64,000 nucleotides of DNA from Raineyella sp. W15-4 (GTDB taxonomy: Bacteria > Actinomycetota > Actinomycetes > Propionibacteriales > Propionibacteriaceae): NCBI RefSeq assembly GCF_033170155.1, contig NZ_CP137079.1:992001-1056000 (forward strand), written 5' to 3'. Below the pieces are notes generated by a model. It had not been told where the DNA came from. It made no database searches and saw nothing but the letters and a program-made list of their open reading frames with translations. The position numbers and the translations under genes were made by a program. This document shows positions 49,571-64,000 of the stretch, piece after piece. Positions within the stretch are counted from its first letter, which is position 1, and each line of letters opens with the position of its first letter.

Positions 49571-51310
49571 ATGGCCCAGCGAGTCGTGATCGACCCCCTC
49601 ACCCGGATCGAGGGGCACCTGCGGATCGAACTGGAGACCGGGGACAAGAAGATCGGCAAGGCCTGGAGCGAGACCACCCAGTTCCGCGGCATCGAGACCA
49701 TCGTCGCCGGCCGCGACCCGCGTGACGCCTGGGCCTTTACCCAGCGGATCTGCGGGGTGTGCACCTCGGTGCACGCCGTCGCCTCGATCGTCGCGGTGGA
49801 GAACGCGATCGGCTCGAACCCGCCGCAGCAGGCCCGGCTGATCCGCGACATGGTGCTGGCCTCGCAGAACATCCAGGACCACGTCATCCACTTCTACCAC
49901 CTGCACGCCCTCGACTGGGTCAACGTCCCCTCCGCCGCGACCGCCGACCCGCAGAAGGCGGTCGACTTCGCCAAGGCGATCGGCTCCACCTGGAAGGGCA
50001 ACACGCTGGCCCGGATGACCGAGGTGCGCGACACCGTCAAGGGGATCCTCGCCTCCGGCCAGCTGAGCATCTTCACCGGCGGCTACTGGGACCACCCCGA
50101 CTACCGGCTGCCTCCCGAGGCGAACCTGATGGCGGTGGCGCACTACCTGGACGCCCTCCAGTTCCAGCGCTCGATGATCCGCATCGGCACGGTCTTCGGC
50201 GGCAAGAACCCGCACCCGAACTTCCTTGTCGGCGGCATGGCGTGCACCATCGACCCGAACCACTCGGAATCGATCAACCAGGTGCAGCTGGACCAGATCG
50301 AGCAGTGGATCGCCGAGTCCACCGAGTTCGTCTCGACCTGCTACGTCCCCGACGCGGTCGCCATCATGGGCGTCTACAAGGACTACTTCGGCATCGGCGC
50401 CGCCCAGCCCAACTTCCTCGCCGTCGGCCTCGCCGGTGCCACCTACGCGGGCGATCCCGCCTCCTCGCGCCTCACCTCGGCGTTCACCGAGGTCAAGCCG
50501 GGGGCGATCTACGACGGTGATCTCGGCACCGTCCACCCGTTCGACCCGACGAAGATCGCCGAGTGGGTGAGCTCGGCCTGGTACACCTACCAGGACGGCG
50601 ACGTCGGCCTGACCCCGGACAAGGGCGAGACGACGCCGCACTACACCGGCCCCAAGCCGCCGTACGAGTGGGTCGCCGACAACCCGGAGTACACCTGGAG
50701 CAAGGCGCCGCGCTACGACGGCAGGGTGGTCCAGGTCGGACCGGTGGCGCGGGTACTGCTGGCGTACGCCCAGGGCCACCCGGCCACGAAGACGCTCGTC
50801 GACGGCGCCTGCCGGAAGCTGGGGATCAGCGTCGGCCAGCTCAACTCGACGGCCGGCCGGACCCTGGCCCGCGCCCTGGAGTGCTCGCTCATCGCAGACA
50901 TCCTGTCGCAGACCACCTTCCCGACCTTCGTGAAGAACCTCAAGGGCGGCGACCTCGCCGTCTTCGACGCCTCCCGGTGGGAGCCGCTGTCCTGGCCGGG
51001 GCGGTCCTCCGGCTTCTCGCTGATCGAGGTGCCGCGCGGGTTCCTCAGCCACTGGGTGACCATCGAGCAGGGCAAGGTGGCCCGCTACCAGGCGGTGGTG
51101 CCCACCACCTGGCTGGCCGGCGGCCGGGACGCCGACGGCCACCAGGGACCGTACGAGGAATCGCTGGCCGGCAACGGCAGACACCCGCTGGTTGACCCGT
51201 CCCAGCCACTGGAGCCGCTGCGCACCATCCACTCCTTCGACCCGTGCATGTCCTGCGCGGTGCACGTGCTGGACCCGGCCGGATCCGAACTGCAGGTCGT
51301 GGCGTCATGA
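49571..51310 (+). CDS. [NiFe]-hydrogenase large subunit
   Basis: 579 residues. It holds the NiFe site: the N-terminal motif RICGVCTSVHA gives Cys61 and Cys64, and the C-terminal DPCMSCAVH gives Cys559 and Cys562. A 14-residue tail after His565 is what the maturation protease encoded downstream should remove. LTRIEGHLRIE near residue 12 is the family start. With the small subunit and cytochrome b it should oxidise H2 at the outer membrane face and pass electrons to quinone. Its stop overlaps the cytochrome b start (ATGA). Confidence 0.97.
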   Translation: MAQRVVIDPLTRIEGHLRIELETGDKKIGKAWSETTQFRGIETIVAGRDPRDAWAFTQRICGVCTSVHAVASIVAVENAIGSNPPQQARLIRDMVLASQNIQDHVIHFYHLHALDWVNVPSAATADPQKAVDFAKAIGSTWKGNTLARMTEVRDTVKGILASGQLSIFTGGYWDHPDYRLPPEANLMAVAHYLDALQFQRSMIRIGTVFGGKNPHPNFLVGGMACTIDPNHSESINQVQLDQIEQWIAESTEFVSTCYVPDAVAIMGVYKDYFGIGAAQPNFLAVGLAGATYAGDPASSRLTSAFTEVKPGAIYDGDLGTVHPFDPTKIAEWVSSAWYTYQDGDVGLTPDKGETTPHYTGPKPPYEWVADNPEYTWSKAPRYDGRVVQVGPVARVLLAYAQGHPATKTLVDGACRKLGISVGQLNSTAGRTLARALECSLIADILSQTTFPTFVKNLKGGDLAVFDASRWEPLSWPGRSSGFSLIEVPRGFLSHWVTIEQGKVARYQAVVPTTWLAGGRDADGHQGPYEESLAGNGRHPLVDPSQPLEPLRTIHSFDPCMSCAVHVLDPAGSELQVVAS

Positions 51311-52551: not shown

Positions 52552-53174
52552 CGCAGGCTGACCCGTACCGCGGTGCCGCGTCGGCCGACGGCGGGCCCGC
52601 GCCGCGGCCTGTGCTGCGGCCCGAGGTGCAGGCCGTGGTGCCGGAGCTCGACCCGGCGGCGCAGGTCACGGTGCTCGGCGTCGGCAACCCGATCATGGGC
52701 GACGACGGGGTGGGCCTGGCCCTCCTCGACGCCGTCCGGCAGGCCCGCGGCGACGATCGCCCCGACGATCGCCTCGACTACGTGGACGGTGGCACCGGCG
52801 GGATGGACCTGCTCCCGCTGGTGCAGGAATCCGAGCGCCTGCTGGTGCTCGATGCGGTGGCCGGGCCGGTGCCCGGCACGGTCGTACGTCTCAACGGTGA
52901 CCAGGTGCCGCGGATGCTGGCCACCAAGCTGTCGCCCCACCAGGTGGGCCTGCTCGACGTGTTCGCGGCCGCCCGGCTGCTCGGGAGCGAGCCCGGGACG
53001 GTCGAGGTGATCGGCATCGTCCCGGAGTCGGTGGAGCTCCGGCTGGGCCTCAGCCCGGCGGTGGCCGCAGCGATCCCGGCGGCCGTCAGGTCGGCCACCG
53101 AGCTGCTGGATGAGTGGCTGGCCGTTGCCGGCGGATCCGCCGGCACGCCGGCGGGACGATCCGGGACCCGATAG
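52548..53174 (+). CDS. hydrogenase maturation endopeptidase (HyaD/HupD family)
   Basis: 208 residues. It cleaves the large subunit after the C-terminal His once nickel is in place. VLGVGNPIMGDDGVGLALL lies near residue 43, DGGTGGMDLLPLV near 82 and the His in KLSPHQVGLLDV near 128; these hold the acidic and His residues that sense nickel in the family. The 35-residue N-terminal Pro/Ala-rich extension is longer than usual. Start overlaps the cytochrome b stop (ATGA). Confidence 0.92.
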   Translation: MTQADPYRGAASADGGPAPRPVLRPEVQAVVPELDPAAQVTVLGVGNPIMGDDGVGLALLDAVRQARGDDRPDDRLDYVDGGTGGMDLLPLVQESERLLVLDAVAGPVPGTVVRLNGDQVPRMLATKLSPHQVGLLDVFAAARLLGSEPGTVEVIGIVPESVELRLGLSPAVAAAIPAAVRSATELLDEWLAVAGGSAGTPAGRSGTR

Positions 53175-53208
53175 CGCCGGCTCCACGACACCAACTACTG
53201 TCGACGTC

Positions 53209-54129
53209 GTGGAGCTGGACCGGCTCGAATGCTTCGTCGCAGTGGCCGAGGAGTTGAACTTCGGCCGCGCCGCCGAACGCGTCCACCGGAGTGCCTCACC
53301 GGTGAGTCGGGCGATCAAGGACCTCGAGCGAGAGCTGGGCGGCGAGCTCTTCGTCCGTGACTACCATCACGTGGAGTTGACCCCGCTCGGGCAGGAGCTG
53401 CTCCCGCTGGCGCGGCGCGTGCTCCGGGACCTGGATCAACTGACCGCCAGAGCCCGCCGGTTCACCCGGTCGGCGCCGGAGCGGGTCGTACGTCTCGGGG
53501 TCTCCCAGCTGTGCCCCCCGCTGGCCAGCGAGGCATTCGAGCAGCTGATCGCCGAGGGCCTGCCGGACGACCGGGTCGAGGTCGTCTTCTCCAGTGGGGC
53601 GGAGTTGCTGTCGCGACTGGAGCAGGGCGACCTGACGATCGCCCTGGTCCAACTGCCCATCGGCCGGCCACGACTGTCGACGAAGGTGCTGGCCAAGCTG
53701 GTGACCTGGGTGATCATGCGGCGGGACGATCCGCTCTCCGACCGGAAGACCCTGAGCCTGGACGATCTCGCCGGCCGCACCCTCACCATCGGTTCGCCCG
53801 CCGTGGAGCCGGTGGCGATGGAGGTGATGATCACGAACCTGCGGGCGCACGGCGTGGTGGACATCGTGCAGCTCCCCGAGTTCGACCACGTCAAGCTCGC
53901 CGCGCACATCCGGTACCGAGGTGGACTGGCCCTGACCCTGCATCCGCGGACCGGCGGGTCCGCGCGGATCTTCGACGATCCGGCCTTCCAGCTCGTCCCG
54001 CTGAGCGACCGCGGGTTCCGGTTCCCGCTGGGCGCGGCGTGGCGCACCGCCGATGCCCGCCGGGAGGGGACGGTGCGGCGGATCGTCGAGTTGCTGGAGA
54101 CGAACTGGACGCCACCGCCACTCGACTGA
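53209..54129 (+). CDS. LysR family transcriptional regulator
   Basis: 306 residues. The winged helix-turn-helix (about residues 1-60) reads VELDRLECFVAVAEELNFGR, then SPVSRAIKDLERELGGELF. A type 2 periplasmic-binding-like effector domain follows. GTG start, chosen because LysR proteins begin at this helix. It follows the hydrogenase protease by 34 bases and precedes the acyl-CoA operon on the same strand, so it could regulate either; the inverted repeat at 54296 favours the acyl-CoA genes. Confidence 0.9.
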   Translation: MELDRLECFVAVAEELNFGRAAERVHRSASPVSRAIKDLERELGGELFVRDYHHVELTPLGQELLPLARRVLRDLDQLTARARRFTRSAPERVVRLGVSQLCPPLASEAFEQLIAEGLPDDRVEVVFSSGAELLSRLEQGDLTIALVQLPIGRPRLSTKVLAKLVTWVIMRRDDPLSDRKTLSLDDLAGRTLTIGSPAVEPVAMEVMITNLRAHGVVDIVQLPEFDHVKLAAHIRYRGGLALTLHPRTGGSARIFDDPAFQLVPLSDRGFRFPLGAAWRTADARREGTVRRIVELLETNWTPPPLD

Positions 54130-54295
54130 CGGCCCTCCCGGCGGACTTCGCACCGTGTCGGCATTGCGGATGGCGGCACGTGCAGTTCCCGACAAAAGCA
54201 ACGAAGAACCCCTGCAGACAATTCAGTACGGGGGCCACTATGGGGGTGCTGCTGGAAGTGGCCGGTGCGCCTGGAAAGTCACGGGATTTCGACGT

Positions 54296-54323
54296 TTCCG
54301 ATGATCGCTGACGATCGTCGGAA
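54296..54323. promoter_or_regulatory. inverted repeat upstream of the acyl-CoA operon, candidate LysR site
   Basis: TTCCGATGATCG and CGATCGTCGGAA pair at 11 of 12 positions around CTGA. It lies in the 261-base gap between the LysR gene and the enoyl-CoA hydratase start, whose remaining sequence has no recognised gene. The length and symmetry suit a LysR binding site or a transcript hairpin. Confidence 0.5.
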
Positions 54324-54390
54324 TCCGTCGGACGTTGTGCTGCTGCGCCCTTGCCCTCTTCCATTGTGCTGTGACGAGAAGAGGCTTGCA

Positions 54391-55266
54391 ATGAACGTTC
54401 CATCCGACGTGACGACCGATGTCACCGAGGCCTATCACCTGCCGGACCTGGACTATTCCGGGTACGAGAAGTTGATCATCCAGGAGCACGGGCCGGTCTA
54501 CGTGTGCTCGTTCAACGACCCGGGCAATCTGAACGCGATGTCGTACGCCCAGATGAGCGAGTTCAACGACTTCCTGACCAAGGTCCGCTGGGACACCCGG
54601 TGCCGGGCGATCGTCCTCACCGGCGAGGGTCGTTCGTTCTGCGCCGGCTTCAACCTCAAGGACCTGGCCCTCGACCCGCCGGACGACATGGGGCGCATCC
54701 AGCGCGACTTCTACGTCATGCAGCGGATGTGCTCGGAACAGATCGTGAACCTGCGCAAGCTCGAGCAGCCCGTGATCGGGGCGCTCAAGGGCTATGCCGT
54801 CGGCGGAGGCCTGTCGCTGGCCTGCTCCTGCGACCTGCGGATCCTCGGCGAGTCGTTCCGGATGAACGCCGGCTACCTGACCATCGGCTACACCGGCACC
54901 GACATGGGCGGCGCCTACTACCTGCCCAAGATCGTCGGCTATGCCAGAGCCGCCGAGATCCTGATGACCGGCCGGCGGTTCGGTGCCCGGCAACTCGCCG
55001 AGTGGGGCTTCGCCTCCGCCGTGGTGCCGGACGACCAGGTGCTGCCCGAGGCACTGGCGCTGGCCCAGGAGATCGCCGACGGGACCGCGCCGTTCGGCCT
55101 GCGGCTGACCCGGGAGGCGCTGCTGGCGTCGCTCGACGGGACGAGTTTCGAGGCCGTGATCAAGCTGGAGAATCGCAATCAGGTCCTGGCCGCGAACACC
55201 CAGGATGGCATCAACGGCGTGATCGGCATGCGCGATCGCTCACCGATCGTCTTCGAGAACAAGTAA
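54391..55266 (+). CDS. enoyl-CoA hydratase/isomerase family protein (CaiD-like)
   Basis: 291 residues of the crotonase fold. The first oxyanion region is RSFCAGFNLKDLAL near residue 85 and the second GALKGYAVGGGLSLACSCDL near 130. At the usual catalytic position the sequence is LTIGYTGTDMGGAYYLP, without an obvious PE pair, so hydration could use other residues or the enzyme may be an isomerase or dehydratase. The first gene of the presumed acid-CoA operon; a GAAGAGG site precedes the ATG. By position it resembles CaiD. Confidence 0.85.
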   Translation: MNVPSDVTTDVTEAYHLPDLDYSGYEKLIIQEHGPVYVCSFNDPGNLNAMSYAQMSEFNDFLTKVRWDTRCRAIVLTGEGRSFCAGFNLKDLALDPPDDMGRIQRDFYVMQRMCSEQIVNLRKLEQPVIGALKGYAVGGGLSLACSCDLRILGESFRMNAGYLTIGYTGTDMGGAYYLPKIVGYARAAEILMTGRRFGARQLAEWGFASAVVPDDQVLPEALALAQEIADGTAPFGLRLTREALLASLDGTSFEAVIKLENRNQVLAANTQDGINGVIGMRDRSPIVFENK

Positions 55267-55341
55267 TCATTCGCTCACGCCGGGGCAGGTGATCGTCGAT
55301 CGTCCGGCCCGGTGCCGAGTGTTCCCGCCGGGAGGTCGGAA

Positions 55342-57420
55342 ATGAGCAACAGCACCACTTATCCACATATCTTCACACCCCTGCAATTGGGGAAGATCCG
55401 GGTCAGGAATCGGGTGGCTTTCCTGCCGATGACCACCGGACTGGTCGATGACTACCGGATCACCGACGAATTCGTTGATTTCTACGCGCAACGGGCCCGT
55501 GGCGGTGTCGGCCTGACGGCCATCGGGTCGGCGTACGTCTGTGACCTGTCCGGTTGCACGACGCAATACCCGACGGCGGGCAAGGCGGCGGGCATCTGGG
55601 ACGACCGGTTCATCGACGGATGGCGGCGGGTCGCCGACGCCATCCGGGCGGCCGGCTCGGTCTCCTGCGTGCAACTGCAGATCTGCTACGAATGGCGCGC
55701 TGACGCGACGCATCCGCTGGAGGCGGTGGGTCCGTCCGAGGGCCCCGGCGGGCCGTTCGTCAAGCACCTGCGGGAACTGAGCCTCGACGAGATCAAGCTG
55801 ATGATCAGCCAGTACGGCGATGCGGCGGTCCGGGCCCAGCAGGCCGGACTCGACATGATCGAGGTGCACGCCGGGATCGGCTACCAGGTGTCGCGCTTCC
55901 TCTCGTCCTTCTCCAACCGGCGCACCGACGAGTACGGCGGCACGCTCGAGAAGCGCACCCGCCTGCTCACCGACATCATCGACGAGATCCACCGGCGCTG
56001 CGGCAAGGACTACCCGGTGATGGTGCGGATCTCCGCCGACGACTTCATGCCCGGCGGCAATCGCGTCCCCGACACCCAGCAGATCATCCCGATCGTCGAG
56101 CGCCACGGCGTGGTCGCCTGGAGCATCCAGGTCGGCTTCCACGAGGCCCCCCGCCTGCTGGTGAACCAGTTCGTGCCCGAGGCGGCGTTCGTGGACATGG
56201 CGCGGCAGTGCAAGCAGATCACCCACCTGCCGGTGATCGCCTCCTACCGGATCAACACGATCGACCGGTGCGAGTCGATCGTCTCCGACGGCTGCGCCGA
56301 CATGGTCGGGATGGCCCGCCAGCTCATCGCCGATCCGGAGTTCGCCGCCAAGGCCGAGCAGGGCCACCCGGAACGGATCCGGGAGTGCATCGTCTGCTCG
56401 CGCTGTCTGGACAACATCTTCGTCGGCAAGACGGTGCAGTGCTCGGTCAATGCGCAGGTCGCGCACCCCGAGCTGGGCTTCGGTGCCAACCCGGCGGCAC
56501 TGCCGATCGAGAAGCGCAAGCGGGTGGTCGTCGTCGGCGGCGGACCCGGTGGGATGGAGGCCGCTCGCGTCGCGGCCCTGCGCGGCCACCAGGTCACACT
56601 GCTGGAGCGCACCGGACGGCTCGGTGGGGTGCTGACGATGGCCCAGGTCCTGAACGAGAACCTTCAGGCCACGGTGACCTGGTACCGCAACGAGATGTCC
56701 CGGCTGCCCATCGACGTCCACCTCAACACCGAAGCGACCGTCGAGGCCGTCCGCCGGTTCGACCCGGACGAGATCATCGTCTCCCCGGGCGGTTCGGTGA
56801 TCACGCCGAAGGGCGTCCGCGGCCTGGATCGCAAGAACGTCATCTCCAGCGGCGACCTCAAGAAGCTCATCGAGGGCAACACCCCGGCCGGCCACGGCCT
56901 GATCTGGAACGCCGCCGGCCTCGGGCTGAGGATGATGCACGCCAGCCCCGGACTGATGCGCTGGGGGATGGGGACGTCGCTGATGATCAAGAAGCGGGTC
57001 GCCGTCATCGGTGGCGGGTTCGCCGGGTGCGAGGTCGCCATGTCGATCATGCGTGACCGTGAGGTGACGATCATCGAGGAGAGCCCGAAGCTGGGCAACG
57101 GCATCGGCATCATCGATCGCCGGCCGGAGCTCAACATCCTCGCCGAGGGTGGCGTCAAGACCCGGCCCGGAACTCGGCTGCTGGAGGTCACCGCTCAGGG
57201 CATCCTCGTCGAGGAGGTCGAGACCGGTCAGCAGGACCACCTCGAGGTCGACACGGTCATCCTCGCGTTGGGCGTCGAGACCAACGACAGCCTCTACCGG
57301 CACCTGCGGGAGGCGTTCGACCACGTCCACCTGATCGGTGACGCGACCACGCCGCCCGGCAAGGTCAAGCGGACCCTCGAAGCCATCTCCGAGGGGTACT
57401 GCGCCGCGATGGCGGTCTGA
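55342..57420 (+). CDS. FMN/FAD/Fe-S enoate reductase (2,4-dienoyl-CoA reductase / BaiCD type)
   Basis: 692 residues. Residues about 1-345 form an old-yellow-enzyme barrel (FTPLQLGKIRVRNRVAFLPM; HAGIGYQVSRFLS). A [4Fe-4S] site follows near 350-375 (CIVCSRCLDN, then VQCSVNAQ). Two nucleotide-binding folds complete it: VVVVGGGPGGMEAARVA near 395 and RVAVIGGGFAGCEVA near 553. Such enzymes use NAD(P)H to reduce a C=C bond of an enoyl or dienoyl acid or CoA ester, often anaerobically; BaiCD acts on bile-acid intermediates. GGAGGTCGGAA before the ATG. Confidence 0.92.
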   Translation: MSNSTTYPHIFTPLQLGKIRVRNRVAFLPMTTGLVDDYRITDEFVDFYAQRARGGVGLTAIGSAYVCDLSGCTTQYPTAGKAAGIWDDRFIDGWRRVADAIRAAGSVSCVQLQICYEWRADATHPLEAVGPSEGPGGPFVKHLRELSLDEIKLMISQYGDAAVRAQQAGLDMIEVHAGIGYQVSRFLSSFSNRRTDEYGGTLEKRTRLLTDIIDEIHRRCGKDYPVMVRISADDFMPGGNRVPDTQQIIPIVERHGVVAWSIQVGFHEAPRLLVNQFVPEAAFVDMARQCKQITHLPVIASYRINTIDRCESIVSDGCADMVGMARQLIADPEFAAKAEQGHPERIRECIVCSRCLDNIFVGKTVQCSVNAQVAHPELGFGANPAALPIEKRKRVVVVGGGPGGMEAARVAALRGHQVTLLERTGRLGGVLTMAQVLNENLQATVTWYRNEMSRLPIDVHLNTEATVEAVRRFDPDEIIVSPGGSVITPKGVRGLDRKNVISSGDLKKLIEGNTPAGHGLIWNAAGLGLRMMHASPGLMRWGMGTSLMIKKRVAVIGGGFAGCEVAMSIMRDREVTIIEESPKLGNGIGIIDRRPELNILAEGGVKTRPGTRLLEVTAQGILVEEVETGQQDHLEVDTVILALGVETNDSLYRHLREAFDHVHLIGDATTPPGKVKRTLEAISEGYCAAMAV

Positions 57421-57547
57421 GCCGCTCCACTCGCACCTCACCCCGGTCATCTCTGTACGGGCGACGCCGTCCCTCCGTACGCCCCCTCCGTACGACTCAT
57501 TTCCAGACAGCCTCAACATCCCATCTCCGCACGAGGAGCACATTTCG

Positions 57548-58717
57548 ATGGTGGATTTCAGCCTTACCGACGAACAGGTCCTGATGAAGCAGGGCATCGC
57601 CGAGTGGTGTCGGACGAAAATGCCCGAGGACAAGATCCAGGAGTGGTACCGCAACCGCGGCATCGACCAGGCGGTCGCGAAGTCCTGGGTGGACGCCGGG
57701 TTCGGCAAACTCGGCATCCCCGAGGAGTACGGCGGCACGCCGTGCGACAAACTCACCCTCTGCCTGGCCATCGAGGAGCTCTGCCACGGCGGCGGCAACA
57801 TCCCGATGGCGCCGAACGCCCTGATCAACTTCGACATCCTCGAGTTCGGCAACCCCGACCAGATCAGGGACGCGATGGACTACTACTTCGAGCAGGGGAT
57901 CCCGAAGTACGCGTTGGCGATCTCCGAGCCCACCGCCGGCTCCGACAACCAGGGCATGACCACCTACACCACCCGGGACGCCGACGGCAGGATCCACATC
58001 CACGGGACCAAGACCTGGGTGACCAACGGCGAGTGGTCACCGGGCCTGATCGTGGTGGCCAAGGACGACGACCCGGCGCGGCAGAACAAGAACATGTCGA
58101 TGTGGCTCGTCGACTCCGCCAGCCCGGGCGTTCGGATCGAGAAGCTCAACAAGATCGGCATGCAGATCGCACCGTTCTGCATGGTGCACTTCGACGACGT
58201 GGTCGTCGAGGAGTCCGCCCTGCTCGGCGAGCGCGGCCGGGGTCTGTACAACCTGATGAAGAACTTCGAGTTCGAACGGGCCGTCCTGATCGCGGAACTG
58301 CTCGGCGAGGCGCAGGCCGCGATGGACGACGCGATGGTGTGGGTCAATCAGCGGCAGGCGTTCGAACAGGGGATCAAGACCTTCCAACTGGTCCAGGAAC
58401 ACGTCACGGACATGCAGATCAAACTGACGAACTCCCGTAACTTCCTCTACCGGACCTGCTGGAAGATGGACACCGGACTGCCGGTCAACAACGACGCTGC
58501 CATGCTCAAGCGGTACGCCGCCCCGTCCCTGACCGAGGTGTGCAGCGAGGCCCTGCAGCTCTACGGCGGGCTCGGCTTCACCGACCAGACCCGCGTCTCG
58601 CGACTGATGCTGGACTGCCGTGGCATGCAGATCGGCGGCGGCACCATCGAGATCATGGTGCACATCGCGGGCCGCGGGATCCTCAAGGAGTACGCCAAGA
58701 ACGGCTTCTACTACTGA
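57548..58717 (+). CDS. acyl-CoA dehydrogenase family protein (CaiA-like)
   Basis: 389 residues. The acyl-CoA dehydrogenase fold is clear: MVDFSLTDEQVLMKQGI at the start, IPEEYGG near 60, FAD-binding ISEPTAGSDNQG near 124, and YGGLGFTDQTRVSRLMLD and GGGTIEIMVHIAGRGIL near the end. In CaiA the same fold works as a crotonobetainyl-CoA reductase. Whether this protein oxidises or reduces cannot be told from sequence. ATG at 57548; the 127-base gap before it has two CCTCCGTACG repeats. The Nudix gene follows after six bases. Confidence 0.9.
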   Translation: MVDFSLTDEQVLMKQGIAEWCRTKMPEDKIQEWYRNRGIDQAVAKSWVDAGFGKLGIPEEYGGTPCDKLTLCLAIEELCHGGGNIPMAPNALINFDILEFGNPDQIRDAMDYYFEQGIPKYALAISEPTAGSDNQGMTTYTTRDADGRIHIHGTKTWVTNGEWSPGLIVVAKDDDPARQNKNMSMWLVDSASPGVRIEKLNKIGMQIAPFCMVHFDDVVVEESALLGERGRGLYNLMKNFEFERAVLIAELLGEAQAAMDDAMVWVNQRQAFEQGIKTFQLVQEHVTDMQIKLTNSRNFLYRTCWKMDTGLPVNNDAAMLKRYAAPSLTEVCSEALQLYGGLGFTDQTRVSRLMLDCRGMQIGGGTIEIMVHIAGRGILKEYAKNGFYY

Positions 58718-58723
58718 GGAAGC

Positions 58724-59743
58724 GTGGGCGAGACGATGCTCAGGGACAGCCGAGACGAGACGGCCGACAGCCGCGACGAGACGGCCGGGGCCACGTCGGG
58801 GACGCGCGAGCGAGGACTGCTGCCCGGGTGGGCGGTGACCCCTGACGGCGTGCTCACAGTGCCCTGCCCACCCGCGCTGGTGCCCGCCGCCCGCAGCTAT
58901 CTGGCCGGCCACGCCGCGGTGGTGACGCCCCGGCTCGCCGCGACGGTCATCCTGGTACGGCCCAGAGGCTCCGGTCGCAGCTGCGGGGACCTGGAGACGT
59001 TCCTGCTGCAGCGGTCGGCCAGCATGGCCTTCGCGCCCGGCGCCGTGGTGTTTCCCGGGGGCGCGGTGGACCAGCGCGACGACGAGCGGATCCCGTGGGC
59101 GGGCCCGAGCCCCCGCCAGTGGGCGGCTCGGCTGGGCTGCGACCCCGGCCGGGCGCGGGCGGTCGTCGTCGCGGCCGCCCGGGAACTCTTCGAGGAGAGC
59201 GGCGTCCTGCTGGCCGGCGTGGACGCCACCCACGTGGTGCGGGACGTCGACTCCGCCGACTGGAGAGCGGAGATCAGCCGGTTGGCGGCCCACCGGACCT
59301 CGATGGCCGAGGTCCTGCTCCGGCACGGCCTGGTCCTGCGCTCCGATCTGCTGGGCCTGCGGGACCACTGGCTGACCCCGGAGTTCGAGCCGCGCCGTTA
59401 CGACACCTACTTCTTCGCCGCGCGCGCCCCCGAGGGCCAGACGGCGAACGCCGTCACCACCGAGGCCGTCAGCGTCCGCTGGGCCTCGCCCCGGACCGTG
59501 CTCGACGCCGCGGCCCGGGGCGAGGTGCAGCTCTTCCCGCCGACCGCCCACAACATCGCCCGACTCGCCGAGAGCGGCTCGGTCGAACAGTTCCTCACCA
59601 CCGAGCGCGCCCTGGACCGACTGATGCTGGTCCCCAGCGAGCGGCAGGAGGGCGGCGTCGTCCTCTCCTGCCGACTCCCGGCACTGACCGGGGCATCCGG
59701 GCGCCGCCCCGATCCATCATCGAAGAAAGAGGCAAGTCAATGA
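58724..59743 (+). CDS. Nudix hydrolase, NUDT19-like, possibly CoA-directed
   Basis: 339 residues. The Nudix region runs from FAPGAVVFPGGAVD (near residue 105) to ARELFEESGVLL (near 148), so the Nudix box is split by an insertion of about 30 residues, as in NUDT19/NUDT7-like enzymes that cleave CoA derivatives. A segment reading LPGWAVTPDGVLTVPCPPAL precedes it. Being within the acid-CoA operon, it may remove or recycle CoA esters; that is inference. GTG start, and the stop overlaps the CoA transferase start. The N-terminal 30 residues have a repeat of DSRDETA. Confidence 0.82.
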   Translation: MGETMLRDSRDETADSRDETAGATSGTRERGLLPGWAVTPDGVLTVPCPPALVPAARSYLAGHAAVVTPRLAATVILVRPRGSGRSCGDLETFLLQRSASMAFAPGAVVFPGGAVDQRDDERIPWAGPSPRQWAARLGCDPGRARAVVVAAARELFEESGVLLAGVDATHVVRDVDSADWRAEISRLAAHRTSMAEVLLRHGLVLRSDLLGLRDHWLTPEFEPRRYDTYFFAARAPEGQTANAVTTEAVSVRWASPRTVLDAAARGEVQLFPPTAHNIARLAESGSVEQFLTTERALDRLMLVPSERQEGGVVLSCRLPALTGASGRRPDPSSKKEASQ

Positions 59744-61068
59744 CAGTCACCGACCGTTTGAACGGGTTCGGTCCGCTGGCCGGTGTGACGATCGTCGAGC
59801 TGTGCGAGTGGGTGGCCGCGCCGGCCGCCGCCCGTATCCTCGCCGAGATGGGGGCCGAGGTGATCAAGATCGAGCCTCCGCACGGTGACGCCCAGCGCAC
59901 CCAGGGGGCGGGATTCGGGGTCGACAAGACCGCGACCGAGGATCCCACCCTGGATCTGAACAACACCAACAAGAACTGGGTGTCGCTCAACCTCAAACAT
60001 CCCGACGGGATGACGGTGATGCGGCAGCTGCTGGCCCGTGCCGACGTCTTCATGACCAGCCTCCGCAGCCATGCGCTGGAGCGCCTCGGTCTGGACTACG
60101 AGACCCTGGCGGAGGAGTTCCCGCGGCTCGTCTGGGCACAGAACCGCGGCTACGGCGAGTGGGGGCCGAACCGGGACGCACCCGGCTTCGACGCGGTGGC
60201 CTGGGCCGCCCGGGGCGGTGTGGCTGCGTCGTTCCCCGAGGCGGGCCGGGAACCGGCGATCCCGCCGCAGGCCTTCGGCGACTACAACCACGCGATGATC
60301 ATGGCCGGAGGCATCCTGGCAGCGTTGTTCGACCGGACCCGTACCGGCAAGGGCAACAAGGTCGTCGGCAACCTCTACCACACCGCACTGTGGGGCGGGG
60401 CCATCGGCATCACGGCCACCCAGTGGGGAGCGACGTACCCCAAGTCGCGCACCCGGGTGCCGAATCCGTTCAACAACACCTACGAGACCGCGGACGGCAA
60501 CTGGCTGCTGCTCTGCCAGCCGCAGTACGACAAGCACTTCCGGTCGATGATGGAGATCCTCGGCCTGGCCGACCACGCCGACGACGAGACGATGAACAGT
60601 CTGCCCGCGCTCAAGGCCAGCGAGAAGGCACCGCAGGTCATCCTGCTCCTGGAAGGCGCCTTCCGGACCCGGTCATTGGCGGAGTGGACGGCCATCCTCA
60701 CCGAGCACGACGTCCCGCACCAGCCGCTCTTCCACTACGAGGACAACCTCACCGACGACGAGGCGTACGACAACGACGCGCTGCGGGCCATCGAGTACCA
60801 GGCCTACGGACCCCGCACCATCGTCACCTCACCGATCCGGTTCGGCGGTTACGGCGACCCGCCACTGCTCCTCTCCAAGCCGACCGGCTATCACACCGTC
60901 GCCTACCTGCAGAAGCTCGGCTACACCGACCCGGAGATCGCCCGACTCGAGGCCAGCGGCGCCGTTTTCGCCTGGCACGGCGAAGAGGTGCCCGACCGGG
61001 TGTTCCGTTCCCGGCGTCAACTGGACCGCGAGGCGTCCCGGACGCCTGGCCCCTCCGTCACCGCCTGA
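59740..61068 (+). CDS. class III (CaiB/BaiF) CoA transferase
   Basis: 442 residues. Class III transferases move CoA between acids without a free CoA intermediate. The N-terminal LAGVTIVELCEWVAAPAAAR and AEMGAEVIKIEPPHGDAQR form the CoA fold; the catalytic Asp lies in FGDYNHAMIMAGGILAALFD near residue 180. A GGYGDPPLLLSKP loop comes near 372. With the ligase encoded last, the pathway has two ways to activate its acid: ligase for start-up and transferase for recycling, as in carnitine and bile-acid systems. ATGA overlap with the Nudix gene. Confidence 0.92.
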   Translation: MTVTDRLNGFGPLAGVTIVELCEWVAAPAAARILAEMGAEVIKIEPPHGDAQRTQGAGFGVDKTATEDPTLDLNNTNKNWVSLNLKHPDGMTVMRQLLARADVFMTSLRSHALERLGLDYETLAEEFPRLVWAQNRGYGEWGPNRDAPGFDAVAWAARGGVAASFPEAGREPAIPPQAFGDYNHAMIMAGGILAALFDRTRTGKGNKVVGNLYHTALWGGAIGITATQWGATYPKSRTRVPNPFNNTYETADGNWLLLCQPQYDKHFRSMMEILGLADHADDETMNSLPALKASEKAPQVILLLEGAFRTRSLAEWTAILTEHDVPHQPLFHYEDNLTDDEAYDNDALRAIEYQAYGPRTIVTSPIRFGGYGDPPLLLSKPTGYHTVAYLQKLGYTDPEIARLEASGAVFAWHGEEVPDRVFRSRRQLDREASRTPGPSVTA

Positions 61069-61117
61069 TCCCGACCATCTGATCCCCTCCCGCCATGAGA
61101 ATCTGGAGTGTCGCACC

Positions 61118-62401
61118 ATGAGTGCTCCGACAGTGTCGAGACCGGCCTCGCCCTCCACGCGACTGTCCGTCCGGCACCTGCTGATCATCGTCACCGGCTG
61201 CATGCTCACCCTCGGCTGTTCGGCGCTGGCCTTCTCGACCTGGGGGCTGTTCCAGCCCCTGGTCGCCGAGAAGCTCGGCGTCACGCAGGCGCAGTTCGCC
61301 GGCTATGTCACCGTCATGTACCTGACGATGACCGCGTTGTCGCCCCTCGCGGGCAAGATCCTGCAGAACACCGACGTACGGCTGGTGCTCTCGGTGGCTG
61401 CCCTGCTGGTCGCCGGCGGGTTCCTGATCATGAGTGTCGCGACCACGATCTGGCTGTTCTACCTGGCCGGTGTCGTGATGGGCTCGGGGACGATCTTCAT
61501 CCTCTGGCTCGCCGTTCCCACCCTGATCAACCGGTGGTTCGCCAAACAGGCCGGGCTGATCATCGGGATCTGCATGGCGTTCACCGGGGTCGGCGGGGCG
61601 CTGTGGTCGGCGGTGTTCACCGTGCTGACGACCTCAGGGGTGGACTTCCACGGCCTCTATCGGCTGTGGGCGCTGATCGCCGTGCTGACCTCGCTGCCCT
61701 TCACCCTGTTCGCCGTCCGGGACCGCCCCTCGGACGTCGGCCTGCTGCCGTACGGGACGGACCTCCGGGCCACCGGGACGACACCGCCGGCCCGGGGTCT
61801 CACCGCCGCGCAGGCGATGCGCAGCCCGGTCTTCTACGTCCTGTGCCTGGGGGCCGGGGTGATCAACATCGCGGTGCTGATCGCGATGCAGTTCCCGGCC
61901 TATGCCAAGTCCCTCACCGGCGTGTCCTGGGACAGGGTCGTCGTCGGTGGGGTGATGTCCACGCTGATGATGACCGGGCAGGCGATCGGCAAGGTCACCA
62001 TCGGGCTCGTTGCGGACCGCAGTCCCCGCGGCGCCCTGCTCTTCGCGGTGTCCGCCGCCGTCGCCGGCGTGCTGTTGTGCTGGCTCGGCGCGGGGTCCCT
62101 GCCGCTGCTCTACACCGGCGCGTTCATCTTCGGGTTCTTCTACGCCACCGCCCTGGTCCTGGTGCCGGTGCTCGCCCGGACCGTCTTCGGGGTGCGTGAG
62201 TACCCCATCATCTACTCCCGGGTGAGCATGGTGTTCAATCTCATTGCGGCCTTCGCCTCGGTGTTCTGGGCCTCCCTCGGCAGCACCTTCGGATTCGCCG
62301 CGGTGTTCGTGGTGGGACTGGCGCTGATCGGCGTGGTCCTGGTGACCTGCGGCTACGTCGTCCGCTCGGCCGGATCACTGCAGGCACGCTGGAACGAGTG
62401 A
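61118..62401 (+). CDS. MFS transporter, oxalate/formate antiporter-like
   Basis: 427 residues with about twelve membrane helices (first near 22-45). It has the look of monocarboxylate/oxalate-formate type MFS carriers: FSTWGLFQPLVAEKLGVTQA near 38 and SPLAGKILQNTDVRLVLSVA near 74 (loop 2-3), and RDRPSDVGLLPYGTD at the end of the first half. It probably imports the acid substrate or exchanges it for the product. Same role as BaiG or CaiT in the analogous systems, but of another family from CaiT. Confidence 0.88.
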   Translation: MSAPTVSRPASPSTRLSVRHLLIIVTGCMLTLGCSALAFSTWGLFQPLVAEKLGVTQAQFAGYVTVMYLTMTALSPLAGKILQNTDVRLVLSVAALLVAGGFLIMSVATTIWLFYLAGVVMGSGTIFILWLAVPTLINRWFAKQAGLIIGICMAFTGVGGALWSAVFTVLTTSGVDFHGLYRLWALIAVLTSLPFTLFAVRDRPSDVGLLPYGTDLRATGTTPPARGLTAAQAMRSPVFYVLCLGAGVINIAVLIAMQFPAYAKSLTGVSWDRVVVGGVMSTLMMTGQAIGKVTIGLVADRSPRGALLFAVSAAVAGVLLCWLGAGSLPLLYTGAFIFGFFYATALVLVPVLARTVFGVREYPIIYSRVSMVFNLIAAFASVFWASLGSTFGFAAVFVVGLALIGVVLVTCGYVVRSAGSLQARWNE

Positions 62402-62408
62402 CCTGACC

Positions 62409-64000
62409 ATGATCTGCACAACATCCTCCGGATCCGCCGCCGTCGACGGCCGATCGCCGACCGGCGAGCGGCGGCGACCGCCGGCCGAGGCCGTCGTCGC
62501 CAGGATCAGCCCGGCCCTCGACGCCGAGTACCGCACCGCGTCGCTGTGGAGCGACGCCAGCGTGTACGACCTGTGGCGAGCCTGCCTGGCATCGGCGCCC
62601 GACCAGGACGTGGTCGTGGACTCCCGGGGCTTCCGAGCCAGCTACCGACAGGCGGACGACCGGGCCGCCCGGCTGGCGGGCTTCCTGCGATCGGTCGGGG
62701 TCGGCCGGGGAGACGTCGTGTCCGTGGTGCTGCCGAACTGGGCCGAGTACCTCGTCGTGAACGTCGCCTGCCTGAAGCTCGGGGCGATCATCAACCCGAC
62801 TCTCCCGCAGTACGGCTACCGCGAACTCCGTTACCTGCTCGATCAGAGCTGTGCGAAGGCCCTGGTCGTGGTGACCCGGTTCCGGTCGATCGACCATCGC
62901 GAGGACGCCCGACGGCTCGCCGCGGCCGCTCCCTGGCTGCGGACCGTCCTGACGGTCGGCCCGAGGACGCCCGACGACCTCCCGTTCGCCACCCTGGACG
63001 AGGCCCTGGTCGGCGACCCACTCCCGGAGGCGGAGTGCACGCCGGGGAAAGGCAACGCCGTGGTCGCCGTGCTCTTCACCTCGGGGAGCGAGACACAACC
63101 GAAGGGGGTGATGCTGACCCACAACAACGTGCTGGCCAGCGAACGAGGGTTCGGCGAGGCCCTCGGGCTGCGCGTGGGGGAGCGGATGTTCATGCCGGCA
63201 CCGCTGGCGCACGCCACCGGGTACCTGCACGGGCTGACGATGCCGCTGATGTTCCGGGGAACCGTCATCCTGCTGGACAGGTTCCGGGGTCTCGACGCCC
63301 TGCGGCTGATCAACACCGAGCAGGCGACCTGCCTGATGGGTTCCACCACGATCGTCGATGACATCGTCGAGGCGGCCCGGGAGCGGGGAGGGTTCCACCC
63401 GGGCCTGCGGCGGATCTGCTGCGGTGGGGCGCCCGTCCCGGCCGGTCTGGTCGAACGGGCGCTGGACCTGGGCGTGCCGGTCCACGCCGTCTACGGGGCG
63501 ACCGAGAGCGCCCCGCACACCATGACCCGCCCCAGCGATCCTCTGGACCGGGTCATCCACTCCGACGGTCGCGCCGTTCCCGGAACACGGATCCGGATCG
63601 TGGACCACCAGACCCACGAAACGCTGCCGCCGGGAACCGAGGGCGAGGAGGCCTCGCGCGGTCCGGCCGTGTTCGTCGGCTACCTGCGCGACCCGGAGCG
63701 GACGGCCTCGGTGCTGGACGACGACGGGTGGTACTACTCGGGCGACCTCGCCGTGATGGACGCCGACGGATACATCCGGGTCACCGGCCGGATCAAGGAC
63801 ACCATCCTGCGCGGAGGAGAGAACATCTCGGCCCGCGAGGTCGAGGAGATCCTGCTGCAACACCCGGCCGTCCGGGACGTCGCCGTCGTCGCGATGCCGC
63901 ACCCGAGGCTGGGCGAGTCCGCCTGCGCGTTCGTGGTCCCACGGGCCGGGGCGGACCCGCTCACCCTGGACGGCGTCCGGGCCTTCTTCACGTTGATGGA
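62409..64000 (+). CDS. acyl-CoA ligase (AMP-forming), CaiC-like, 3' end beyond the window
   Basis: 530 codons are present and the frame remains open at the right edge. The AMP-binding enzyme motifs are in order: FTSGSETQPKGVMLTHNN (P-loop, near residue 228), YGATESAPHT (near 365), GWYYSGDLAVMDADGYIRV (near 440) and GRIKDTILRGGENIS hinge (near 460). Only the last part of the small C-terminal domain with the catalytic Lys is missing. The 40-residue N-terminal extension before RTASLW may be over-called. It activates an acid to its CoA ester. Confidence 0.92.
   Translation, partial: MICTTSSGSAAVDGRSPTGERRRPPAEAVVARISPALDAEYRTASLWSDASVYDLWRACLASAPDQDVVVDSRGFRASYRQADDRAARLAGFLRSVGVGRGDVVSVVLPNWAEYLVVNVACLKLGAIINPTLPQYGYRELRYLLDQSCAKALVVVTRFRSIDHREDARRLAAAAPWLRTVLTVGPRTPDDLPFATLDEALVGDPLPEAECTPGKGNAVVAVLFTSGSETQPKGVMLTHNNVLASERGFGEALGLRVGERMFMPAPLAHATGYLHGLTMPLMFRGTVILLDRFRGLDALRLINTEQATCLMGSTTIVDDIVEAARERGGFHPGLRRICCGGAPVPAGLVERALDLGVPVHAVYGATESAPHTMTRPSDPLDRVIHSDGRAVPGTRIRIVDHQTHETLPPGTEGEEASRGPAVFVGYLRDPERTASVLDDDGWYYSGDLAVMDADGYIRVTGRIKDTILRGGENISAREVEEILLQHPAVRDVAVVAMPHPRLGESACAFVVPRAGADPLTLDGVRAFFTLM

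Follow-up and report, generated by a model that had tools for sequence, protein, structure and literature searches.

A candidate CoA-dependent reductive pathway encoded by a 14-gene block in Raineyella sp. W15-4

In the enoyl-CoA respiration of Syntrophus aciditrophicus, as outlined in passages of PMC8805022, electrons travel via EMO, an electron transfer flavoprotein (ETF) and an acyl-CoA dehydrogenase to an enoyl-CoA. For Escherichia coli, passages of PMC9329746 describe FixAB as required for carnitine reduction, YdiQR as an ETF of unknown function, and FadK as most active on C6 and C8 acids. Clusters built around Fe-S flavoenzymes in gut bacteria mostly include an MFS gene, and many carry flavodoxin or ETF domains, according to parts of PMC7371122. 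Here we describe a 14-gene block from Raineyella sp. W15-4 that has features in common with each of these systems. It starts inside the window, by which we mean the whole 64,000-nucleotide stretch analyzed (G000:C1:992,001-1,056,000, in a single-contig genome of 3.96 Mb), and ends past it; coordinates, including those greater than 64,000, are in window numbering. We read the block as a possible CoA-dependent reductive pathway in which an unsaturated carboxylic acid would serve as electron sink, a reading that we believe and doubt in about equal measure.

The block occupies 16.5 kb (53,186-69,697) and is made up as follows.

53209..54129, + strand: LysR-type regulator, first gene of the block (HTH_1, 2.6e-20; LysR_substrate, 1.3e-10)
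54130..54390, + strand: intergenic stretch ahead of the first enzyme gene, holding the candidate LysR site TCGGCATTGCGGA
54391..55266, + strand: crotonase-fold protein, predicted enoyl-CoA double-bond isomerase (ECH_1, 2.7e-42)
55342..57420, + strand: OYE/Fe-S flavoenzyme of 692 aa (Oxidored_FMN, 1.5e-57; Pyr_redox_2, 1e-24)
57548..58717, + strand: acyl-CoA dehydrogenase ACAD1, YdiO/CaiA type (Pfam; NCBIfam YdiO and CaiA models)
58724..59743, + strand: Nudix protein (NUDIX, 4e-7, a weak match; PDB 3qsj, 4.3e-13)
59740..61068, + strand: class III CoA-transferase (CoA_transf_3, 6.9e-82)
61118..62401, + strand: MFS carrier (MFS_1, 8.8e-24)
62409..64160, + strand: acyl-CoA ligase, cut by the window end at 64000 (AMP-binding, 7e-79)
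64,157-64,924, past the window: EtfB1
64,921-65,877, past the window: EtfA1
65,870-66,634, past the window: EtfB2
66,647-67,627, past the window: EtfA2
67,624-68,529, past the window: cytochrome b561-like protein
68,553-69,695, past the window: second acyl-CoA dehydrogenase, ACAD2

The original prediction had placed seven enzyme and carrier families in a row behind a LysR gene, and Pfam finds all of them, with the LysR gene, on the + strand at those places and in that order. The families were thus correctly named; the genes number eight with the regulator, and the row runs about 5.7 kb beyond the window, where the electron-transfer half lies. Extending past the 3′ end, as had been proposed, uncovered the two ETF pairs, the cytochrome b561-like protein and the second dehydrogenase. 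The intergenic gaps from crotonase to ligase measure -4 to 127 bases, short enough to make a single transcript plausible, and at the six junctions from ligase to ACAD2, four genes overlap by 4 or 8 bases and the other two gaps are 12 and 23 bases. TCGGCATTGCGGA, at 54,158, is the sole T-N11-A candidate at the threshold used and matches at five of six paired positions. It is a possible LysR site, and differs by one base in the sister genome G001 (an alignment of 454 columns, 72% identical, with both gene ends included).

In the proposed pathway, the MFS carrier would import the acid and the FadK-like ligase would prime the cycle, after which the class III transferase is predicted to move CoA, at no cost in ATP, from the product onto fresh substrate. 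Using NAD(P)H, the OYE would saturate one of the two double bonds in a 2,4-dienoyl-CoA or cyclic equivalent; the isomerase would shift the other until it is conjugated with the thioester; and the YdiO/CaiA-type dehydrogenase, fed by ETF, would reduce the 2-enoyl-CoA, the saturated acid being released after CoA exchange. Electrons would probably reach ETF from menaquinol, via an EMO-like protein in Eggerthellaceae and perhaps via cytochrome b in Raineyella, where our only candidate for such a route, a speculative one, is the cytochrome b encoded by the gene that separates EtfA2 from ACAD2. Our best reading of the block is thus one akin to enoyl-CoA respiration, acting on a conjugated or ring dienoic acid. 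The sequences themselves show which genes are there, what active-site residues they encode, how they are linked and co-occur, and that the block sits at two sites; the direction of the reactions, the order of the steps and the electron donor we infer. A FadH-type enzyme, an isomerase and an ETF-linked dehydrogenase could together reduce a conjugated or ring diene twice in succession, and a ligase with a class III transferase would suit priming and CoA recycling. Pfam recognizes no hydroxyacyl-CoA dehydrogenase and no thiolase among the 14 genes (the rest of the genome was not searched), and the block has no hydratase site, so that the acid is probably reduced and released rather than broken down.

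The closest solved relatives of the OYE are 2,4-dienoyl-CoA reductase (1ps9, 264 bits) and NCR (6qkg, 259 bits), the latter acting on naphthoyl-CoA. The protein is 31% identical to E. coli FadH and retains Tyr181 and His267, corresponding to FadH Tyr166 and His252, together with cysteines 349, 352, 355 and 367. The Tyr and His positions are kept in all eight sequences aligned with FadH. Cysteine spacing is x2, x2, x11 in the seven actinobacterial rows and x2, x3, x11 in FadH and the Gracilibacter row. Among NCBIfam models, the best are mycofactocin OYE 2 (369 bits) and BaiCD (366.5 bits, cut-off 825), with neither cut-off reached. We expect the OYE to work like FadH.

The original prediction had called the crotonase-fold protein a hydratase, a name that does not survive alignment with CaiD, PaaF and PaaG. 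Ser142 and Ala160 replace PaaF Glu109 and Glu129, and five aligned orthologues likewise lack both hydratase glutamates, whereas Asp171 aligns with PaaG Asp144, which we take to be the catalytic aspartate. All three residues are invariant across 10 sequences, and CaiD has both glutamates as well as the aspartate. The loss of both hydratase glutamates with retention of Asp171 is the isomerase pattern, and the protein is predicted to be an enoyl-CoA double-bond isomerase with a PaaG-like rather than a PaaF-like active site. Its AlphaFold model (pLDDT 35) was set aside. A second crotonase paralogue, 62-64% identical to the window's protein, is present in G326, G497, G498, G505 and G506; its neighbors in G326 include another MFS relative (59%) and a LysR-like gene.

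ACAD1 has Glu243 at what we take to be the IVD-type base position and Gly364 at the position of MCAD Glu376, as do YdiO and CaiA, and Glu243 is its predicted catalytic base. Its best model is YdiO, at 430 bits (cut-off 537), with CaiA at 253 (cut-off 540), both scores being below the cut-offs. Its structural model (pLDDT 77) ties with many acyl-CoA dehydrogenases in fold comparison with the PDB and names no substrate. At 1e-60 the PDB yields a single sequence match to ACAD1, 4rm7, an acyl-CoA dehydrogenase from Slackia heliotrinireducens. For the ligase, FadK is the best model (562 bits, cut-off 736; 42% identity to E. coli FadK) and cyclohexanecarboxylate-CoA ligase the second best (417 bits, cut-off 792). 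The CoA-transferase keeps the catalytic aspartate (Asp181), aligned with that of E. coli CaiB, and falls short of the CaiB model (91 bits, cut-off 413). The carrier weakly resembles bile-salt and lactate carriers, far under the cut-offs, with the bile-salt carrier model best at 89 bits of 400, and in the Nudix protein about 40 residues separate PGGA from RELFEESG, a long insert in the Nudix box. The run also holds two ETF pairs and, with ACAD2, two acyl-CoA dehydrogenases, in keeping with enoyl-CoA respiration, which calls for an ETF pair next to an acyl-CoA dehydrogenase in a single unit.

The original prediction of a LysR-headed acid-CoA operon, reductive in outlook and with cai-like and bai-like parts, is supported, although the cai system is not its nearest kin. 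In a comparison with 14 proteins of E. coli K-12, the ydi/fadK set is closer for both the dehydrogenase (YdiO 40%, CaiA 34%) and the ligase (FadK 42%, CaiC 26%), and the block's proteins stay below the NCBIfam cut-offs of all the models CaiA, CaiB, BaiCD, mycofactocin OYE 2, YdiO and FadK. The ydi genes (ydiF-ydiO-ydiQRST-fadK) likewise unite a YdiO-type dehydrogenase, a FadK-type ligase and an ETF pair (EtfA1-YdiR, 31%) in one cluster. They differ in using YdiF as CoA-transferase and YdiST instead of the block's cytochrome, and in lacking its OYE, crotonase, Nudix protein and class III transferase. The E. coli ydiF-fadK genes (L097) directly adjoin ydiB (quinate/shikimate dehydrogenase) and aroD, a position that may hint at what the ydi enzymes act on. 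The cai/fix system shares the dehydrogenase, class III CoA-transferase, ligase, crotonase and ETF logic, but has a different type of carrier, a CaiD with true hydratase residues and no OYE. CaiT is a BCCT-type carrier; no BCCT domain of this antiporter is found among the 14 genes, where MFS_1 is the only carrier domain.

Ansatrienin producers convert shikimate to cyclohexanecarboxyl-CoA with a ligase, an acyl-CoA dehydrogenase, a dienoyl-CoA reductase-like protein and a crotonase-fold isomerase. This enzyme set is similar in kind to that of the block; the ansatrienin pathway is biosynthetic, and is not known to include an ETF or a CoA-transferase. The block shares with Syntrophus enoyl-CoA respiration an acyl-CoA dehydrogenase that would run in reverse through ETF, as well as an EMO-like protein in the related cluster of G401, which we take to be the Eggerthella lenta type strain. 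It differs in adding an OYE, an isomerase and a CoA-transferase, and in that EMO was not found in the Raineyella genome. The gut Fe-S flavoenzyme clusters, bai among them, likewise combine an OYE/Fe-S enzyme with MFS and ETF genes, whereas the block misses the BaiCD cut-off and is not named in those parts of PMC7371122. Clusters of this kind have thus been described in general terms for gut bacteria. A search of open-access full text, partly aimed at the cluster, found no published assignment of it and no paper naming its substrate; searches on E. lenta locus tags, over an assumed tag range, and on Raineyella likewise turned up nothing about it, and the terms acyl-CoA, enoyl-CoA and electron transfer flavoprotein do not occur in the main text of an E. 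lenta metabolism paper (PMC10234575).

Relatives of most block genes cluster in other genomes more than chance would have it, as the original prediction had proposed to examine, and the combination is not the one-off cai/bai hybrid that was envisaged. Of 396 Actinomycetota genomes, 8 have ACAD1 relatives (E ≤ 1e-100) and 5 have the crotonase (E ≤ 1e-60), counting Raineyella itself in both; all the others belong to family f29, which we take to be the Eggerthellaceae. Of 138 f29 genomes, 32 encode the OYE (E ≤ 1e-120) and 31 the crotonase (E ≤ 1e-80), the latter all within the 32. By genus, the crotonase is found in 13 of 48, all inside the 14 OYE genera (hypergeometric 7e-11, a value too small given relatedness). 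Of the 31 genomes, 16 have the two genes at most 20 kb apart and 14 have them on separate contigs; in G571 the distance is about 226 kb. These linkage and co-occurrence counts were made by eye.

We read the surroundings of the OYE by tblastn in 23 of the 32 genomes (G452, G456, G461, G462, G497, G517, G548, G568 and G569 being left out), mostly over 10.7-19.5 kb and in some cases up to a contig or region edge, so that counts for distant genes are lower bounds. An ACAD1 relative (56-70%) adjoins the OYE in 17 of these loci, a Nudix relative is present in 13, EtfB in 12, and a TetR-like gene, assigned by Pfam on the G401 protein, in 17. Three genomes read over at least 33 kb (G110, G401 and G326) contain the OYE, ACAD1, an ETF pair and the Nudix protein as well as relatives of the crotonase (73-74%), CoA-transferase (58-63%), carrier (57-62%) and ligase (37-39%), a second dehydrogenase 32-34% identical to ACAD2 and a third 35-38% identical to ACAD1. 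Since their genes lie on both strands, this is a cluster rather than one operon. The f29 counterparts of ACAD2 retain the MCAD-type glutamate. EtfA is followed by a protein of 686 aa in G401 and 704 aa in G110; the G401 protein has Nitrate_red_gam, Fer4 and CCG domains, which we take to be the make-up of EMO, and 11 of the 23 loci encode proteins similar to it.

Looser forms of the combination recur elsewhere. In Gracilibacter sp. BRH_c7a, the core forms a single run on a contig of 12.6 kb: an ACAD (55%), a CoA-transferase (28% over 214 residues), an OYE (30%) and, after a reading frame unrelated to the block, EtfB and EtfA (21-34%). Neither the crotonase nor the ligase has a match on this contig. 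In G011, from the same family as Raineyella, an OYE (31%), a crotonase (31%), a ligase (30%), an ACAD (40%) and two CoA-transferase matches (25-26%) stand in a row (L012). Among 82 genomes of the class of G577, ACAD1 (E ≤ 1e-110) occurs in two, G577 itself and G634 (48%), and the crotonase (E ≤ 1e-60) was not found in a search run without a positive control. A variant cluster in G510 (L082) comprises an MFS gene, an EMO-like protein, an ETF pair, an OYE and ACAD1, and by eye also another crotonase-like protein and a hexapeptide, perhaps CaiE-like, protein.

The block is found at two chromosomal sites. The sister genome G001 has DNA homologous to 53,186-58,687 and 58,811-69,697 at a different place, about 0.9 Mb from its hydrogenase genes, and the OYE (E ≤ 1e-90) was not found in G002 or G003. 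In both G001 and G003 the hydrogenase cluster spans the site that the block occupies in Raineyella: the alignment breaks at 53,120 and restarts at 69,794, with 67 bases between the aligned flanks in G001 and 115 in G003. The copy elsewhere in G001 and the uninterrupted hydrogenase site in both genomes suggest that the genes from LysR through ACAD2 travel together. The 16.5 kb thus seem to behave as one mobile unit, whose edges delimit the block more closely than those of the window. About 1.5 kb off the LysR end of the G001 copy is a reading frame that, by eye, is tyrosine-recombinase-like. No foreign base composition is apparent, the block being 70.2% G+C against 70.9% on either side. In an OYE tree of 40 rows, the Raineyella and G001 sequences group together and are placed between G510 and 33 other rows; long branches are flagged and some forks are open, and the tree does not settle the direction of transfer. 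The LysR, crotonase and ACAD2 genes of the G001 copy each match in two pieces, with indels or assembly errors the likely cause. We also considered H2-driven respiration, given hydrogenase genes on both sides of the block, and this idea is weakened by a G003 hydrogenase without the block and a G001 block far from the hydrogenase. With the flanks so close together in both genomes, the hydrogenase neighborhood is most simply the result of insertion and is weak evidence for H2 as donor.

Several observations weigh against the block being a reductive pathway of the kind proposed. An acyl-CoA dehydrogenase with ETF can work in either direction, and ACAD2 has neither of the usual catalytic bases (Gln240, Ala361), leaving its role obscure. 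A genome-wide search for EMO in Raineyella returned, at the sensitivity used, one weak match of 34 bits and the search for FixC one match of 49 bits and 27%, neither convincing, so that a link to the quinone pool is conjectural in this organism; the cytochrome b561-like protein is unmatched in the other loci. The second cysteine spacing of the OYE is one residue shorter than that of FadH. Among the loci compared, the complete 14-gene set occurs only in Raineyella and G001; ACAD1 is absent beside the OYE in 6 of the 23 f29 loci, and G510 has the OYE and ACAD1 without this crotonase family. Six further f29 loci (L032-L037; G083, G252, G410 and G419), excluded from the 23-locus counts, have weaker ACAD1 relatives (46-50%) with no OYE nearby, showing that the dehydrogenase type occurs without it. 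Shared descent also inflates the co-occurrence of crotonase and OYE.

Partial beta-oxidation of a fatty or ring acid, with ETF delivering electrons to menaquinone, would draw on much the same genes: ligase, ACAD, crotonase, FadH-like reductase and ETF families all act in beta-oxidation of unsaturated acids. We nevertheless consider it unlikely, since neither a hydroxyacyl-CoA dehydrogenase nor a thiolase is among the 14 genes (either could lie elsewhere in the genome), the crotonase has no hydratase active site, and a CoA-recycling transferase suits the release of an end product. Equally doubtful to us is the reduction of an aryl acrylate (cinnamate, caffeate or coumarate) via CoA esters in the manner of caffeate respiration, with the OYE as accessory enoate reductase. 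Such acids offer one reducible side-chain double bond, which would make a FadH-like OYE, an isomerase and ACAD1 redundant, and the OYE is closest in sequence to dienoyl-CoA reductase and NCR.

The same count of double bonds bears on carnitine/crotonobetaine reduction by a cai system with an extra reductase. CaiA-, CaiB- and CaiC-type proteins and a FixAB-like ETF are indeed present, but crotonobetaine has no second double bond for the OYE, the carrier is an MFS protein and not a BCCT-type one like CaiT, neither of CaiD's two glutamates is present in the crotonase, and the CaiA and CaiB models reach 253 of 540 and 91 of 413 bits; we judge this explanation very improbable. Hardly credible is the transformation of bile acids or other steroid acids by a relative of bai. 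The OYE scores 366 bits against BaiCD, just under mycofactocin OYE 2 (369), and the bile-salt carrier model (89 bits) is the best match of the MFS protein, yet the respective cut-offs of 825 and 400 are missed widely. The bai gene content includes a short-chain dehydrogenase and BaiE, and neither that dehydrogenase nor a BaiE-like domain is among the 14 genes. Of the substrates listed in the original prediction, crotonobetaine and bile acids become less likely, crotonobetaine and cinnamates being one double bond short of what the full enzyme set would use, and sorbate stays a candidate. Because the ligase is kin to FadK, the reductive reading suggests C6-C8 acids, either sorbate-like dienoates or cyclohexene carboxylates.

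A more specific and, in our judgment, improbable proposal sees in the block a mobile respiratory system for a ring acid: shikimate or quinate would give rise to a cyclohexene or cyclohexadiene carboxylate, which the block would reduce to cyclohexanecarboxylate via CoA esters. Hints in this direction are an OYE near 2,4-dienoyl-CoA reductase and NCR, a PaaG-like isomerase, the second-best match of the ligase, to the cyclohexanecarboxylate-CoA ligase model, and the position of ydi beside ydiB and aroD; against it, no enzyme that removes ring hydroxyls is recognized in the block. An old report, one of two conflicting ones cited in a passage of PMC7558350, holds that gut bacteria turn shikimate into cyclohexanecarboxylate, from which the host makes hippurate. 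Were the ring-acid proposal true, the E. lenta cluster would hold the genes behind that report. Whichever acid is used, the reductive reading attaches to a bounded 14-gene set with a related cluster in the apparent type strain of a well-studied gut bacterium, and bears on the E. coli ydi genes, including the ETF YdiQR; should the acid come from the diet, the cluster would mark its fate in the gut genetically.

Beyond ACAD2, the next gene is hypA, on the opposite strand. It adjoins a gene just past the window for a 446-aa protein (L004:18173-19000 into L005) whose first 276 aa match PF00374 at 2e-9, a weak likeness that points tentatively to an orphan or degenerate [NiFe] hydrogenase large subunit. 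Rfam at gathering scores gives no match within the window. At 49744-49835 (- strand), inside the hydrogenase large-subunit gene, ARAGORN reports a tRNA whose identity is unclear and whose anticodon has four bases, probably a false call.

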